Shown here: in pieces, positions 5,374-12,561 of the stretch | Position numbering within the stretch: the first letter of the stretch is position 1 | Layout of the letters: every line of letters starts with the position of its first letter | The notes under the pieces: generated by a model | What the model saw: only the letters and a program-made list of their open reading frames with translations | Told to the model about the DNA's origin: nothing | The model's database searches: none | Made by a program: the position numbers and the translations under genes | Source: Myxococcota bacterium | GTDB taxonomy: Bacteria; Myxococcota_A; UBA9160; UBA4427 | Direction: 5' to 3' | Length of the DNA: 49,076 nucleotides | Assembly (NCBI GenBank): GCA_029941885.1 | Contig: JAPYTP010000019.1 | Location: 1-49,076 of the forward strand

Positions 5374-7464
5374 ATGGCTCGCGAAGTGCACTCGATCGGT
5401 CGACCCCGTCTCTTCATCGCCTTCGCCTGCGTAGGCACCCTCGCCGTCGCGGCCTGTTCTCCACACTCCGTCGAGGAAGCCGACATACCGGACGCGGCGG
5501 ACACGGCGGAACCCGTATCGCGCGCCCTCGCGCCCTCCGGTGAACCCTACAGCGAGAATCGCGCACCCTGCGCCGACCGCGTTTCCCTCCGCCAGACGTT
5601 CTGGGGAGAGCTGCACGTTCACTCATCGCTCTCGATGGACGCCTGGCTGTGGGACGTACGAAATGGCCCCGACGAGACCTTTCGCTTTGCCAAGGGTGAA
5701 GAGACCTTCCTCCCCCCGCTCGACGATCTGGGCGCGCCCACCAGGGCCGCGCGCCTCGAGCGTCCGATCGATTTCGCCGCGCTCACTGATCATGCGTCAT
5801 TCCAAGGTGAGGTCGCCCTCTGTTCGCGACCGGATTCCTCGCGCTATGCCAGCGAGGCCTGTCGACTCTTTCGAGGGGAGATCCCGATCCCCGAAGGTCC
5901 CCTCGGAGACTTCGGAACAAGGATGGCTTCGCTCTCGGACGCCCTCGACGCCGCCGCCACGCTGATTCGCCGAAACGAGGCGATCTGCGGCGATGAGAGC
6001 GGCGAGGTCTGCCGTGCTTCGATGACGACAGTCTGGGAGGAACAGCAGGCCGCTGCGGAGCGGCACTACGACCGCTCGGAAGATTGTCGGTTCACGACGC
6101 TCCATGCCTACGAGTACACTGCGACCCCGGGGCTCGCGAAGGTCCATCACAACGTGATCTTCCGCAACGCGAACGTGCCCGTCTCGCCGATCGCGTGGGT
6201 CGACGAACCCGATGTCTACGACCTCTGGGACGAACTTCGAAGGCAATGCCTCGAGGCCGGCATCGGCTGCGATGTCATCACCCTGCCCCACAACTCGAAT
6301 CTGAGCAATGGCAACATGTTCGCGATCACTGGAAAGGATCTCCCTCTCGAGCAACAACGCACCCGCGCCATGTTGCGCGGGGATATCGAGCGCCTCGCCG
6401 AGATCACCCAGATCAAGGGCGACTCGGAATGTCGCAATGGCTTTGCCGGCGTAATCGGCGCAACGGATGAATTCTGCGAATACGAGGAATGGCGGGGTCC
6501 GGAGGTCGAGGACTGCGGCGCTGACGGCAAGGGCTACGGAGCCTTGATGGACCAGGGCTGTGTCTCGCGCAAAGACTACGTGCGTTATGCGCTCCTCGAA
6601 GGTTTCCGAGAACAGCGCCGAATCGGGGTGAACCCCTTCAAGATCGGGATCATCGCCGCCACCGATACGCACAATGCGAATCCAGGTGACGTCGAAGAAT
6701 ACTCCTACCAGGGCTGGCAGGGTTCACCCGATGCGACGACCGAGAAGCGCCTCGAGCGCGGGAACAGCCCCATCAACGCGACGAATTCTCTGGCCTCCAA
6801 TCCCGGAGGTCTGGCCGGTGTCTGGGCGGAAGAGAACTCCCGCGACGCAATCTTCGATGCCATGAAGCGCCGCGAGACGTTCGGGACCAGTGGCCCCCGA
6901 ATCACCGCACGTTTTTTCGGCGGCTGGGAGTTCCCCGAGGATCTATGCGGGGATCCAGAACTCGTCGCGAAGGGCTACGCCCGGGGCGTTCCAATGGGGG
7001 GCGACCTGCCGCCGCGACCCGACGGAGCCTCCGCACCAACCTTCGTCCTCTCGGCGATGCGCGACCTCGGCACCCCCGACCATCCCGGCGGATTGCTTCA
7101 GCGCGCACAGGTCGTGAAGGGCTGGGTGGATGAAGAAGGTCTCTTCCATCAGGAAATCGTCGATGTCGCCGGGGGTCCGAACGGAGCGCGCATCGATGCG
7201 GACACCTGTCGACCACGTGGTGTCGGGCATAACAGCCTATGCAGCGTCTGGACCGATCCCGACTTCGATATTTCCCAGAATGCGGTCTACTACGCCCGGG
7301 TCATCGAGAACCCGAGCTGCCGATGGTCTGCGATTCAATGCCTCGAACAGGGCGACGGATCACGAAGCCCTAGCTGTTCGGACCCCAGCATTCCGAAGGC
7401 GATTCAGGAACGGCTGTGGACTTCACCGATCTGGTACGAGGCACGAGCCGGGAACGCCCGCTAG
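5374..7464 (+). CDS. DUF3604 protein, predicted lipoprotein (first of a tandem pair)
   Basis: This 696-residue protein begins with a signal peptide ending in a lipobox (AVAAC, Cys at about residue 28), so it should be a lipoprotein. The mature part is DUF3604, related to PHP-type metal hydrolases. Likely metal ligands are seen in LHVHSS near residue 85, ALTDHA, TLPHNSN and AATDTHN. The substrate is unknown. The central part carries many Cys residues (CGDESGEVC, CEYEEW, CGADGKG), consistent with disulfides outside the cytoplasm. GGAGG precedes the ATG by 4 nt. The next gene, 21 nt downstream, encodes a paralogue, so the two are probably co-transcribed. Confidence 0.87.
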   Translation: MAREVHSIGRPRLFIAFACVGTLAVAACSPHSVEEADIPDAADTAEPVSRALAPSGEPYSENRAPCADRVSLRQTFWGELHVHSSLSMDAWLWDVRNGPDETFRFAKGEETFLPPLDDLGAPTRAARLERPIDFAALTDHASFQGEVALCSRPDSSRYASEACRLFRGEIPIPEGPLGDFGTRMASLSDALDAAATLIRRNEAICGDESGEVCRASMTTVWEEQQAAAERHYDRSEDCRFTTLHAYEYTATPGLAKVHHNVIFRNANVPVSPIAWVDEPDVYDLWDELRRQCLEAGIGCDVITLPHNSNLSNGNMFAITGKDLPLEQQRTRAMLRGDIERLAEITQIKGDSECRNGFAGVIGATDEFCEYEEWRGPEVEDCGADGKGYGALMDQGCVSRKDYVRYALLEGFREQRRIGVNPFKIGIIAATDTHNANPGDVEEYSYQGWQGSPDATTEKRLERGNSPINATNSLASNPGGLAGVWAEENSRDAIFDAMKRRETFGTSGPRITARFFGGWEFPEDLCGDPELVAKGYARGVPMGGDLPPRPDGASAPTFVLSAMRDLGTPDHPGGLLQRAQVVKGWVDEEGLFHQEIVDVAGGPNGARIDADTCRPRGVGHNSLCSVWTDPDFDISQNAVYYARVIENPSCRWSAIQCLEQGDGSRSPSCSDPSIPKAIQERLWTSPIWYEARAGNAR

Positions 7465-7485: not shown

Positions 7486-9465
7486 ATGTTTCGAGTGCGG
7501 AGCGCAACCGCCGTGACGACTGCCGCGATCCCGCTGGCGTCGTTCCTCGCGATTCCCATCCTGATCCTGTGGGTCGCCGGGACGGCAAGTGGGGCACCAG
7601 ACAACGCAGTCTCGACCACGGATCCCGAATCTCCGCATGCGATTCTCGCTCGACCCTACGCAGTCACCGAGAACCGGGAGCCGTGTGCCGAATACGACGT
7701 GCTTCGCCGACCGCTCTTCGGAGACCTGCATGTGCACACCGCGCGATCCCAGGACGCGTCGACCCAGGACACGCGCATGAGTCCACGCGACGCCTATCGC
7801 TTCGCCAGGGGGGAAGCGCTCGAGATCCAGCCCTTCGACGATCGGGGTGTTGGCATGCGGCAGGTGCGACTCGATCGCGCCCTCGACTTCGCCGCCGTCA
7901 CGGATCATGCCGAGCAGATCGGCGAGGTGCACATCTGTAATACCCCGACCGCGGCAGGCCACGGATCCCTGGCCTGCCGAATCTATCGGAGCTTCCCACG
8001 CGTTGCGTTCTATCTCTTCAATGGGCGCTATTCGATGTTCCAATCGCGCTGGGGATTCTGTGGGGAGAACGGCGAGATCTGTCTCGCCGCCGCAGGCGTC
8101 GTCTGGCAGGAACATCGAGACGCAGCGGAGCAATACTATGATCGATCTTCACGCTGCGCGTTCACCTCCCTCGTTGCATACGAGTGGACCGCGGCACCGA
8201 AACGAGGAGCCCATCTCCACCGCAACGTCATTTTTCGCAACGAGCTCGTCCCCGACGTCCCGATCAGCGTAATGGAGACGACCGAGATGGCCATCAACCT
8301 GTGGCGAATGCTCGACGCGGCTTGTCGAGATGGGAAGCCGGGCTGCGAGGCGATCACGATTCCGCACAACTCGAACTGGGGGCGAGGCACGACCTTCAGC
8401 TCCGCCAGCATTCCGGATGCGGAGATCACCGCCCAGGAATCCGAGATCCGGGCCCGCTACGACCGACTCGTCGAGATTATGCAACACAAGGGAGAATCCG
8501 AGTGTGCGCTCTATCCCGGCGTCACCGACGAGGGCTGTGGCTTCGAAAAGGCGCCGGACCCCTTTGCGATGGGCGACACGGCCTTCGAGGCGATCAACTT
8601 TGCGCGGGACGCGTTGAAGCGTGGTCTCGCCCTCGAGAGCCCACTCGGGATCAACCCCCTTGCCTTCGGCCAGATCGGCAGTACCGACACCCATCTCGGC
8701 ACCCCGGGACTCGTCAAGGAACGCGGTCACCCGGGCCATGGAGGGGCAGGCAAGCCCGGCAACGAAGTCTTCGACGAGCCCGGCTTACCCGATGCCGCGA
8801 CATTGAATCCGGGCGGCCTGGCGGTGGTCTGGGCGGAGGAAAATTCGCGGGATGCGATCTTCGAAGCGATGCGACGGCGTGAAACCTACGCGACGAGCGG
8901 AACGCGTCCCGAGCTGCGCTTCTTCGGCGGCTGGACCTACGCGCAAGAGACCTGTGCGGACGGCAACGTCGCCGCAACGGGCTATTCGGAGGGCGTGCCC
9001 ATGGGTGCGGATCTGCCCGAGCGCATGGCCGACGCGGGCGCCCCCACCTTCCTGCTCGCGGCCTCCCGCGACCCGCACCCGAACGGCGGCGATCTCGAGC
9101 AAATCGAAATCGTGAAGGGTTGGATCGAGAACGGCCAGGCGAAGGAGATCGTACTGAGTGTCGCCGGCGGCGCCTCCGAGGCGAGCGTCGACGTCGATAC
9201 CTGCGAACGAAAAGGTCGGGGTGAAACCCATCTCTGCAGCGTCTGGCGCGATCCGGATTTCGATCCGGCCGAACCCGCCTTCTATTATGCGCGACTGCGG
9301 GAGACCCCGAGCTGCCGTTGGACTCAATGGGCGTGCGTCGATGCGGGCGTTTCCTGTGACGACCCGTCGACGATCCCCGATGGCTTCGGGATCTGCTGCA
9401 GAGGTGAGGTCGAAGCGACGATCCAGGAACGCGCCTGGAGTTCACCGATCTGGTATCGGCCCTGA
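7486..9465 (+). CDS. DUF3604 protein, secreted paralogue (second of the pair)
   Basis: A 659-residue paralogue of the preceding protein with the same order of motifs: LHVHTARSQD, AVTDHAEQIGE, TIPHNSNWG, and STDTHLGTPG near the C-terminal third. Both share the closing sequence SSPIWY/TSPIWY. Unlike its neighbour it has a classical signal peptide (hydrophobic to about residue 36, cleavage near ASG-AP) and no lipobox, so it is predicted to be released to the periplasm or outside. Cys positions partly match the paralogue, again suggesting disulfides. The RBS is GAGGA before the ATG. The pair may act on one extracellular substrate with different localisation; that is inference. Confidence 0.86.
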   Translation: MFRVRSATAVTTAAIPLASFLAIPILILWVAGTASGAPDNAVSTTDPESPHAILARPYAVTENREPCAEYDVLRRPLFGDLHVHTARSQDASTQDTRMSPRDAYRFARGEALEIQPFDDRGVGMRQVRLDRALDFAAVTDHAEQIGEVHICNTPTAAGHGSLACRIYRSFPRVAFYLFNGRYSMFQSRWGFCGENGEICLAAAGVVWQEHRDAAEQYYDRSSRCAFTSLVAYEWTAAPKRGAHLHRNVIFRNELVPDVPISVMETTEMAINLWRMLDAACRDGKPGCEAITIPHNSNWGRGTTFSSASIPDAEITAQESEIRARYDRLVEIMQHKGESECALYPGVTDEGCGFEKAPDPFAMGDTAFEAINFARDALKRGLALESPLGINPLAFGQIGSTDTHLGTPGLVKERGHPGHGGAGKPGNEVFDEPGLPDAATLNPGGLAVVWAEENSRDAIFEAMRRRETYATSGTRPELRFFGGWTYAQETCADGNVAATGYSEGVPMGADLPERMADAGAPTFLLAASRDPHPNGGDLEQIEIVKGWIENGQAKEIVLSVAGGASEASVDVDTCERKGRGETHLCSVWRDPDFDPAEPAFYYARLRETPSCRWTQWACVDAGVSCDDPSTIPDGFGICCRGEVEATIQERAWSSPIWYRP

Positions 9466-10811: not shown

Positions 10812-10963
10812 TCACCCTCCTCGACCCCGCGGAACGTCGGGGCCGTGGGTCGATCGAGTCTAGGTCAGCCCCCCCTCGCCGCCCGCCTCGACAACGCCCC
10901 CCATCCGCTAGAATCGTGAGCACCCAGAAGACCGCGATCGTCCGCGGCGAAGGAGGAATCAGC

Positions 10964-11464
10964 ATGAGCGCAGAGGAAGTCACTCCCGCCGAGCCGGAAG
11001 GCGCAGGCCTCAATATGACGGAGCTGCTGCCTGACCTGTTCGAGCGCTTCTTCGCCTTTTTTCGACCCGCTCACACCGAGGGCGTGGCGCCAAGCCGAAT
11101 CAAGGAACTCGCTCGGATCAAGATCGCGGCCTTGAACGGTTGCGACACTTGACTGTTCGCACGCTACGCGTCGGCGACGCGTCAAGGACTCGACGAAGAG
11201 ACGATTGCCCAGATCCACAAACCGCTTGCGGAGCGCACCCTCGAGCCGCGGGATGGCCTGGCGGTTCGGTTTGCTGAAAAGCTCGCAACGGATTTCAGGG
11301 CTGTGGATGCCCCCTTCATGGCGGAACTCAGGGAACATTTCAACGACGCGGAAATCGCGGAGCTCGGGCTCATGATCGGTCAGTACATGGCGCTCGGCCG
11401 GATGCTCGTCATCTCGGGCGGTCATCACGCGGCGTGCGAAATCTACGAGGCGCCCGGAGGCTGA
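10964..11464 (+). CDS. carboxymuconolactone decarboxylase/AhpD-like selenoprotein (CxxU)
   Basis: The gene starts at ATG 10964, with AAGGAGG 7 nt upstream, and reads 62 codons to TGA at 11150-11152. The same frame then continues without a stop to TGA at 11462. Read through, it gives 166 residues with U63 in NGCDTU-LFARYAS. CMD/AhpD-like proteins have NGCxxC at this point, followed by an F-A-x-x-A helix, so the TGA replaces the second redox Cys. The part after the TGA is clearly the rest of the same domain (REHFNDAEIAELGLMIGQY, then GRM). An immediate hairpin fits a SECIS. AhpD-like selenoproteins are known in some bacteria. The likely role is thiol/peroxide redox chemistry; the partner is unknown. 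Confidence 0.88.
11166..11182 (+). promoter_or_regulatory. putative bacterial SECIS hairpin of the CMD selenoprotein
   Basis: ACGCGTC at 11166-11172 pairs perfectly with GACGCGT at 11176-11182, leaving a GGC loop. The loop begins 20 nt after the TGA, and its first base is G. Bacterial SECIS elements are stem-loops inside the coding region just 3' of UGA with a G near the start of the apical loop; both the spacing and the G match that model. Binding by SelB is inferred. Confidence 0.72.
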
Positions 11465-11502
11465 TTTCGACGTGATTTCGGCGGTCGACTCCCCCGAGAG
11501 TT

Positions 11503-12561
11503 CTAGAGGGCGTTCCGCGTGGCCTCGATCAGGTCCGGAATGAATTGCGCCGTGAAATTCGGGACGACCATGTCGGGATTCGCTTCGCGCATAGCAGCGA
11601 ATTTCAGTTCGAGCACGATCGCGTAGCGAACGACTGCGAAGAGTTCGAACCACTCGATCCCTGTGATCGAGCGGCCGGTGAGTTCACCCCAACGCGCGTA
11701 GACTTCTGCCGGCGCGGGCAAGCCGGGCAGACGCTCAGCGCCCAGGCCTTCGCTGTTGCAGCGATCGATCCAGATCCACCAGGCGAGATCGGCGCGCGGA
11801 TCGGAGATGCTCGCCATCTCCCAGTCGAGTACTGCGGCCACACGATTGTCGCGGAAGATCAGGTTTCCGGGACGGGAATCTCCCCAACACAGGGCCGACT
11901 CGCCCGCCGGTGGGCTCGTGTCACGCAAGAACTCCCAGCCGGCGAGAATGCGCGAGTCGACCGCTTGACGAAGCTCGGGTTTGAACATCGAATCGAAGAT
12001 CCGCAATTCTTCGCCGACGAGGGTCTCGCCGTCTCGGGCGCGCGGCAATCGGGTCAGATCGTGTGCACCGGGATCGATCCGATGAATCTTCGCGAGGGTC
12101 TCGATTCCGGACGCCCACATCGCGGTGCGGTCCTGCGCGCCCACCTCGTCCTTGAGCCATCCCGCGAGCATCATCGGCGGATTATCCGGAGGGATTCGTC
12201 CCTCGCAGAAACCCATGACGTAGAAGTCGCTTCCGAGCATCGACGAATCCGGCTCATAACCCACCAACGGTGGCGCGGGGAGCCCCTCCGCCGTCATGAT
12301 CTGCATCATCTGGAATTGCATGAGCAGGTCATGGGTCTCGAAAACCTGACTCTTCGGCGGCGCCATCCGAAAGACGAACCGTTCCTGCGCGGAATCGGCG
12401 AAGGTCGCGTCGAGAATCAGTGTGACGCTGCTCTCGCCACTCGCCTTCGGAAACTCGAGATGGGAAATCGCGAGCCCTCTACGCTCGGGCAGCTGCCCCT
12501 TCAGCCAGCCCTCGATTCCCCTGCGAATCTCCTCGAGATCGCCGATGTCCTGCTCACCCAT
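11503..12561 (-). CDS. APH-like phosphotransferase family protein
   Basis: A 352-residue protein of the aminoglycoside phosphotransferase/choline kinase fold. The catalytic loop CWGDSRPGNLIF (about residue 220) is a variant of the HGDxxxxN motif, with Trp in place of the usual His-type residue and the catalytic Asp and Asn retained. The Mg-binding segment AVLDWEMASISDPRADLAW follows. The N-lobe shows RFVFRMAP as the likely Lys/Arg-containing strand. In bacteria rich in acyl-CoA dehydrogenases such genes are common and resemble the kinase domain of ACAD10/11, which acts on 4-hydroxyacyl-CoA; that role is plausible but unproven here. The RBS AGGAG is 7 nt before the ATG. Confidence 0.82.
   Translation of the reverse strand: MGEQDIGDLEEIRRGIEGWLKGQLPERRGLAISHLEFPKASGESSVTLILDATFADSAQERFVFRMAPPKSQVFETHDLLMQFQMMQIMTAEGLPAPPLVGYEPDSSMLGSDFYVMGFCEGRIPPDNPPMMLAGWLKDEVGAQDRTAMWASGIETLAKIHRIDPGAHDLTRLPRARDGETLVGEELRIFDSMFKPELRQAVDSRILAGWEFLRDTSPPAGESALCWGDSRPGNLIFRDNRVAAVLDWEMASISDPRADLAWWIWIDRCNSEGLGAERLPGLPAPAEVYARWGELTGRSITGIEWFELFAVVRYAIVLELKFAAMREANPDMVVPNFTAQFIPDLIEATRNAL

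Follow-up and report, generated by a model that had tools for sequence, protein, structure and literature searches.

Does an in-frame TGA in a putative redox gene end a short protein, or is it read as selenocysteine (Sec)? This question is raised by a gene at positions 10964-11464 on the plus strand of a 49,076-nucleotide stretch of a Myxococcota genome (contig JAPYTP010000019.1), which was analysed at its full length (the window). The first-pass annotation, made from the DNA sequence, described this gene as a CMD/AhpD-like selenoprotein with TGA where the second redox Cys would stand (CxxU). Our analysis indicates that the gene encodes, in all probability, a CMD/AhpD-like selenoprotein in which Sec63 is directed by a SECIS element, and which is a probable thiol/selenol oxidoreductase or peroxidase.

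The reading frame continues across a single TGA

The frame opens with an ATG at 10964 and closes with a terminal TGA at 11462-11464. The only in-frame stop between them is the TGA at 11150-11152, as had been described. When this TGA is translated as U, the 62 codons before it and the 103 codons after it give a 166-residue protein with Sec63. Both halves had been assigned to one domain, and the Pfam CMD domain (PF02627) does bridge the TGA, matching residues 23-95 of the readthrough protein at 32.5 bits against a gathering cut-off of 23, which places the protein in the CMD superfamily. The redox motif is C-D-T-U, and its first residue, Cys60 (codon 11141-11143), is invariant in the 29 aligned orthologues. 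The TGA=U translation, the domain match across the TGA, the orthologues and the codon-position changes described below all define the same gene, which almost certainly encodes an intact AhpD-like redox protein with selenocysteine at its active site. Standard gene finding would probably split or lose it. Gene finders could instead call a 262-aa antisense ORF at the same locus.

The TGA column is conserved or replaced by Cys

Orthologues were searched for in 80 genomes of the same order as the window's genome. The TGA was found at the same place in 28 other genomes, with orthologues 66-87% identical, and the only further orthologue without the stop (L052, genome G062) has TGC there; among the close orthologues aligned, TGA is therefore present in 29 of 30. 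A sample of 379 genomes from the phylum yielded four more TGA genes, each from the class of the window's genome, plus a Cys gene (L098, genome G318), and the complete data set holds 34 TGA genes and two Cys genes. Since 28 other genomes of the order and four more of the class have the TGA, it is not a sequencing error of a single assembly; the earlier proviso that reads might show TGC or TGT is answered by its recurrence in independent assemblies. Cys occupies the column in L052, L098, PA0269 (7xw1) and homologues in Chromobacterium, Pseudomonas and Pandoraea. The codon is thus an in-frame UGA where homologues have Cys, as in bacterial selenoproteins, and the earlier assignment of this place to the second Cys of a C-x-x-C pair was correct. 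Close relatives in GTDB contigs came solely from MAGs labelled Deltaproteobacteria, Myxococcota or bacterium, and plasmid relatives were merely 28-33% identical among the matches listed. These results point to a probable selenoenzyme that much of one uncultured order retains.

A second TGA gene of the same subfamily was observed in the window's own genome (L099, G000:C428:2539-3024, on a 3.2-kb contig). It is 65% identical to the window gene and its hairpin, described below for the window gene, is the same. This copy may be contamination of the MAG, because in the tree it clusters with L053, which comes from a different genus.

A covarying SECIS-like hairpin follows the TGA

A bacterial SECIS-like hairpin, ACGCGTC-GGC-GACGCGT, lies at 11166-11182 on the plus strand and begins 13 nt past the TGA, with seven perfect pairs between 11166-11172 and 11176-11182 and the loop GGC at 11173-11175. 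This is exactly the 7-bp hairpin with a G-first loop that had been reported at this distance, and it has the general features of bacterial SECIS elements (PMC1088965), a stem-loop directly after the UGA whose small apical loop contains a G. Of the 1143 TGAs counted on the two strands of the window, 14 are followed by a comparable 7-bp hairpin, so that a hairpin in a single sequence is weak evidence; what raises this one above chance is its conservation and covariation across orthologues. The other 13 TGA-hairpins in the window are not flanked on both sides by long, homologous-looking frames with a redox motif, and none of them looks like a second selenoprotein.

The hairpin is kept in all 29 aligned TGA-bearing orthologues, and the five TGA genes found later (the C428 gene and the four class members) carry the identical sequence. 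Across the 29 aligned TGA genes the stem is paired in 99.5% of cells, compared to at most 57% in slid controls, and RNAalifold recovered the same stem unprompted. Compensatory changes, with both sides altered, were found at three of the seven stem pairs. The compensated stems are ATGCGCA/TGCGCAT in L030-L031 and ACGCGCA/TGCGCGT in L051, and L032 has ATGCGCA/TGCGCAA with one end pair broken; in the protein tree they fall into two distinct clades (L030-L032 and L051), with modest internal support. These changes alter the protein from A-S-A-T-R to A-Q-A-A-H, A-Q-A-A-Q or A-Q-A-A-R, and the RNA structure thus constrains the protein. Identical synonymous codons make up 82% over codons 4-11 after the TGA versus 52% elsewhere, and by this measure no eight-codon stretches elsewhere in the gene score higher than those over the hairpin. 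The Rfam SECIS_1 model (RF00031) did not match the locus, a null result that is uninformative because the model was likewise silent in all 14 control genomes.

The hairpin is broken in both TGC orthologues. L052 has a CNLC motif and the stem region ACGAGGC/GACGCTC, which forms no 7-bp helix, and L098 has a CQTC motif and no stem. L052 is placed inside the Sec clade with support of 95/83, and its genome retains selA. This placement is consistent with a change from Sec to Cys there and later hairpin decay, and to judge from the tree this order of events is likely. The 34 TGA and two Cys genes thus form a clean natural test of a SECIS structure constraining protein sequence, in which amino-acid-altering stem changes are matched by compensation and the Cys forms no longer have the hairpin.

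The genome encodes the selenocysteine machinery

The window's genome has a tRNA-Sec with anticodon TCA (67 bits), SelA (529), SelB (305) and SelD (265), all above curated cut-offs. This is the complete set looked for in a bacterial selenoprotein producer, and the presence of the machinery in the same genome had been named as a check. Contamination of this MAG is estimated at 6%; since selA is present in 28 of the 29 sampled genomes of the order, contamination does not explain the machinery. Together with the TGA/Cys column and the recurring TGA, the machinery supports the first-pass reading of the TGA as a selenocysteine codon, and it is very likely that SelB decodes the UGA for residue 63.

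In the mechanism that we infer, the mRNA hairpin, 13 nt beyond the UGA, would serve as the SECIS element, bringing SelB with Sec-tRNA-Sec so that the UGA is decoded as selenocysteine at residue 63 and not as a stop. Sec63 and Cys60 would then form a C-x-x-U redox pair where the second helix of the AhpD helical hairpin begins, with Glu48 retained as the presumptive proton-relay acid. Sec63 could attack a peroxide (or a disulfide); the oxidised selenium would then be resolved by Cys60, giving a selenenyl-sulfide that a thiol system of the cell would reduce.

The active site is AhpD-like with a changed proton relay

The AlphaFold model is all-helical, with a pLDDT of 87.4 and a pTM of 0.80; it was built from a shallow 29-row alignment of a single subfamily, with Cys substituted for Sec. 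The model matches the AhpD-like structures 2gmy, 2ijc and 7xw1 at TMq 0.67-0.73, and the debrominase Bmp8 (6ohi/6ohj) is also among the matches at TMq 0.63-0.66. PA0269 of Pseudomonas aeruginosa (2ijc, 2o4d, 7xw1) and M. tuberculosis AhpD (1gu9) have in common with the window's protein the fold and the helical hairpin Glu-(11 residues)-C-x-x-C/U (PMC3141380). The proton relay of PA0269, Glu36, Cys48, Tyr50, Cys51 and His55, is equivalent to Glu118, Cys130, His132, Cys133 and His137 of M. tuberculosis AhpD (PMC3141380), and its counterparts in the window's protein are Glu48, Cys60, Thr62, Sec63 and Arg67. The Glu and the first Cys are thus kept, and E48, which lies 12 residues before C60, is invariant together with C60 and U63 in the aligned orthologues. 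In contrast, Sec stands for the second Cys, Thr62 replaces Tyr50/His132 and Arg67 (codon 11162-11164) replaces the catalytic His55/His137 four residues after the second redox residue. Arg67 is Arg in 29 of 29 orthologues, whereas His is found at this place in PA0269 and in the Cys homologues of Chromobacterium, Pseudomonas and Pandoraea.

The original CMD/AhpD-like CxxU label therefore holds for the CMD domain and the C-D-T-U motif. With two of the five relay residues changed, the protein is AhpD-like and its membership of AhpD proper is not established; the catalytic chemistry may also differ from that of AhpD. Given Sec, the likeliest function, and a reasonably probable one, is that of a C-x-x-U thiol/selenol oxidoreductase or peroxidase. 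A late Cys158, present in 27 of 29 orthologues, could be a further redox partner.

The changed relay also lends itself to a different view of the chemistry. Sec63 could belong to a non-peroxidase, such as a reductive dehalogenase or another specialised enzyme with an AhpD site re-tooled through Arg67 and Thr62. The two replaced relay residues, the invariance of Arg67 in the subfamily, the Arg also found in distant Sec paralogues (L101, L108-L110) and the appearance of Bmp8 among the structural matches are consistent with this. AhpD-like oxidoreductases outrank Bmp8 as structural matches, however, and no neighbouring gene suggests dehalogenation, and we consider such an enzyme improbable. There is a small chance that the proteins form a distinct CxxU subfamily whose relay is rebuilt on the invariant Arg (and Thr) for non-peroxide chemistry, for example reductive dehalogenation or the reduction of a specific metabolite.

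Decay, reassignment and an antisense gene do not account for the locus

A pseudogene or an assembly error would, as any nonsense TGA does, interrupt the frame, and 7-bp hairpins after TGAs are not rare in the window. The two halves would then be decaying, but the changes at codon positions 1, 2 and 3 number 220, 193 and 634 before the TGA and 440, 318 and 1296 after it. This excess at position 3 on both sides shows that both halves are under purifying selection; no additional stops accumulate, and 33 other genes have the TGA at this codon. With the TGA, the downstream frame and the hairpin all conserved, decay is refuted. Reading of the TGA as another amino acid, for example Trp, through genome-wide reassignment or a suppressor would likewise keep the frame open. 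Against this, orthologues and homologues have Cys and not Trp at the column, TGA is the terminal stop of the window gene and of most orthologues, and a dedicated Sec machinery is present; reassignment has next to no chance of being correct.

The 262-aa ORF on the minus strand (10865-11653) spans the selenoprotein gene from end to end and could in principle be the true gene. However, 10 of 29 orthologues have stops in its frame, the changes cluster at the third codon position of the plus frame, and the CMD homology belongs to the plus frame. The antisense ORF was rejected on these grounds. The selenoprotein reading thus faces negligible competition from an antisense gene, and the same is true of a pseudogene.

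The probable selenoprotein is of a known kind

CMD/AhpD-like CxxU selenoproteins have been published since 2005, and the kind of protein is therefore already known. A CMD-domain selenoprotein (Pfam02627, CxxU) was described in the Sargasso Sea set in 2005 (PMC1088965) and 'AhpD-like 2' (pfam02627, CxxU) in the GOS set in 2008 (PMC2398784), and such proteins appear in current lists (PMC9312934, PMC13188914). The window's protein shares with the Sargasso (4 sequences) and GOS (70 sequences) proteins the domain, the CxxU motif with Sec as second redox residue and a SECIS directly downstream, a likeness drawn from their descriptions. A literature search on selenoproteins in Myxococcota found no report in the library searched.

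No NCBIfam model reached its cut-off for the window's protein. The best, and by count also the best match across the 29 members, was GroundWater_YciW (NF053654), a YciW-related (seleno)protein of the same superfamily; its score of 36.1 bits against a curated cut-off of 310 indicates a related but different family. The GSU3128 family (NF041047), the 'distant AhpD homolog' of PMC13188914, is likewise a CxxU AhpD-like selenoprotein and matched merely four of the 29 members, weakly (best E 1.5e-4). The AhpD models also remained below cut-off (TIGR00778, 26.3 vs 27.8; TIGR01926, 25.9 vs 81.8). The family, found here in one class of uncultured (Deltaproteobacteria/Myxococcota) MAGs, is probably an additional subfamily of the known CxxU selenoproteins. 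The likely splitting of the gene and the lack of an NCBIfam selenoprotein model at cut-off mean that this selenoenzyme is probably missing from databases.

Neighbouring genes and other CMD genes

The neighbours of the gene encode an MFS transporter, an APH-family phosphotransferase, DUF3604 proteins, a CoA-transferase and a WS/DGAT protein. The MFS gene is directly upstream in four of six related loci compared, and DUF3604, CoA-transferase and WS/DGAT genes recur in several of the six. As no recurring neighbour is redox-related, the context gives no functional clue. The DUF3604 genes form a tandem upstream in the window (5374-7464 and 7486-9465), with counterparts near the selenoprotein gene in L058-L061 and L063.

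Other CMD genes were also observed. A separate subfamily with a CHVU motif and its own hairpin after the TGA comprises L101 in the window's own genome (G000:C1:115859-116203) and L109 (G021), and is, by its motif and hairpin, likely another selenoprotein. A more distant CMD protein, L100 (G000:C208:310-516), has CHYU with a hairpin downstream and, unlike the main family, keeps the catalytic His four residues past Sec. A fifth CMD match in this genome, L102 (G000:C21:37684-37812), has one in-frame TGA and scores 24 bits, with no match to the subfamily profile. Four distant paralogues (L108, L110, L106 and L107), two with TGA (CNLU, CGFU) and two with Cys (CRFC, CPIC), all have Arg four residues past the redox site.
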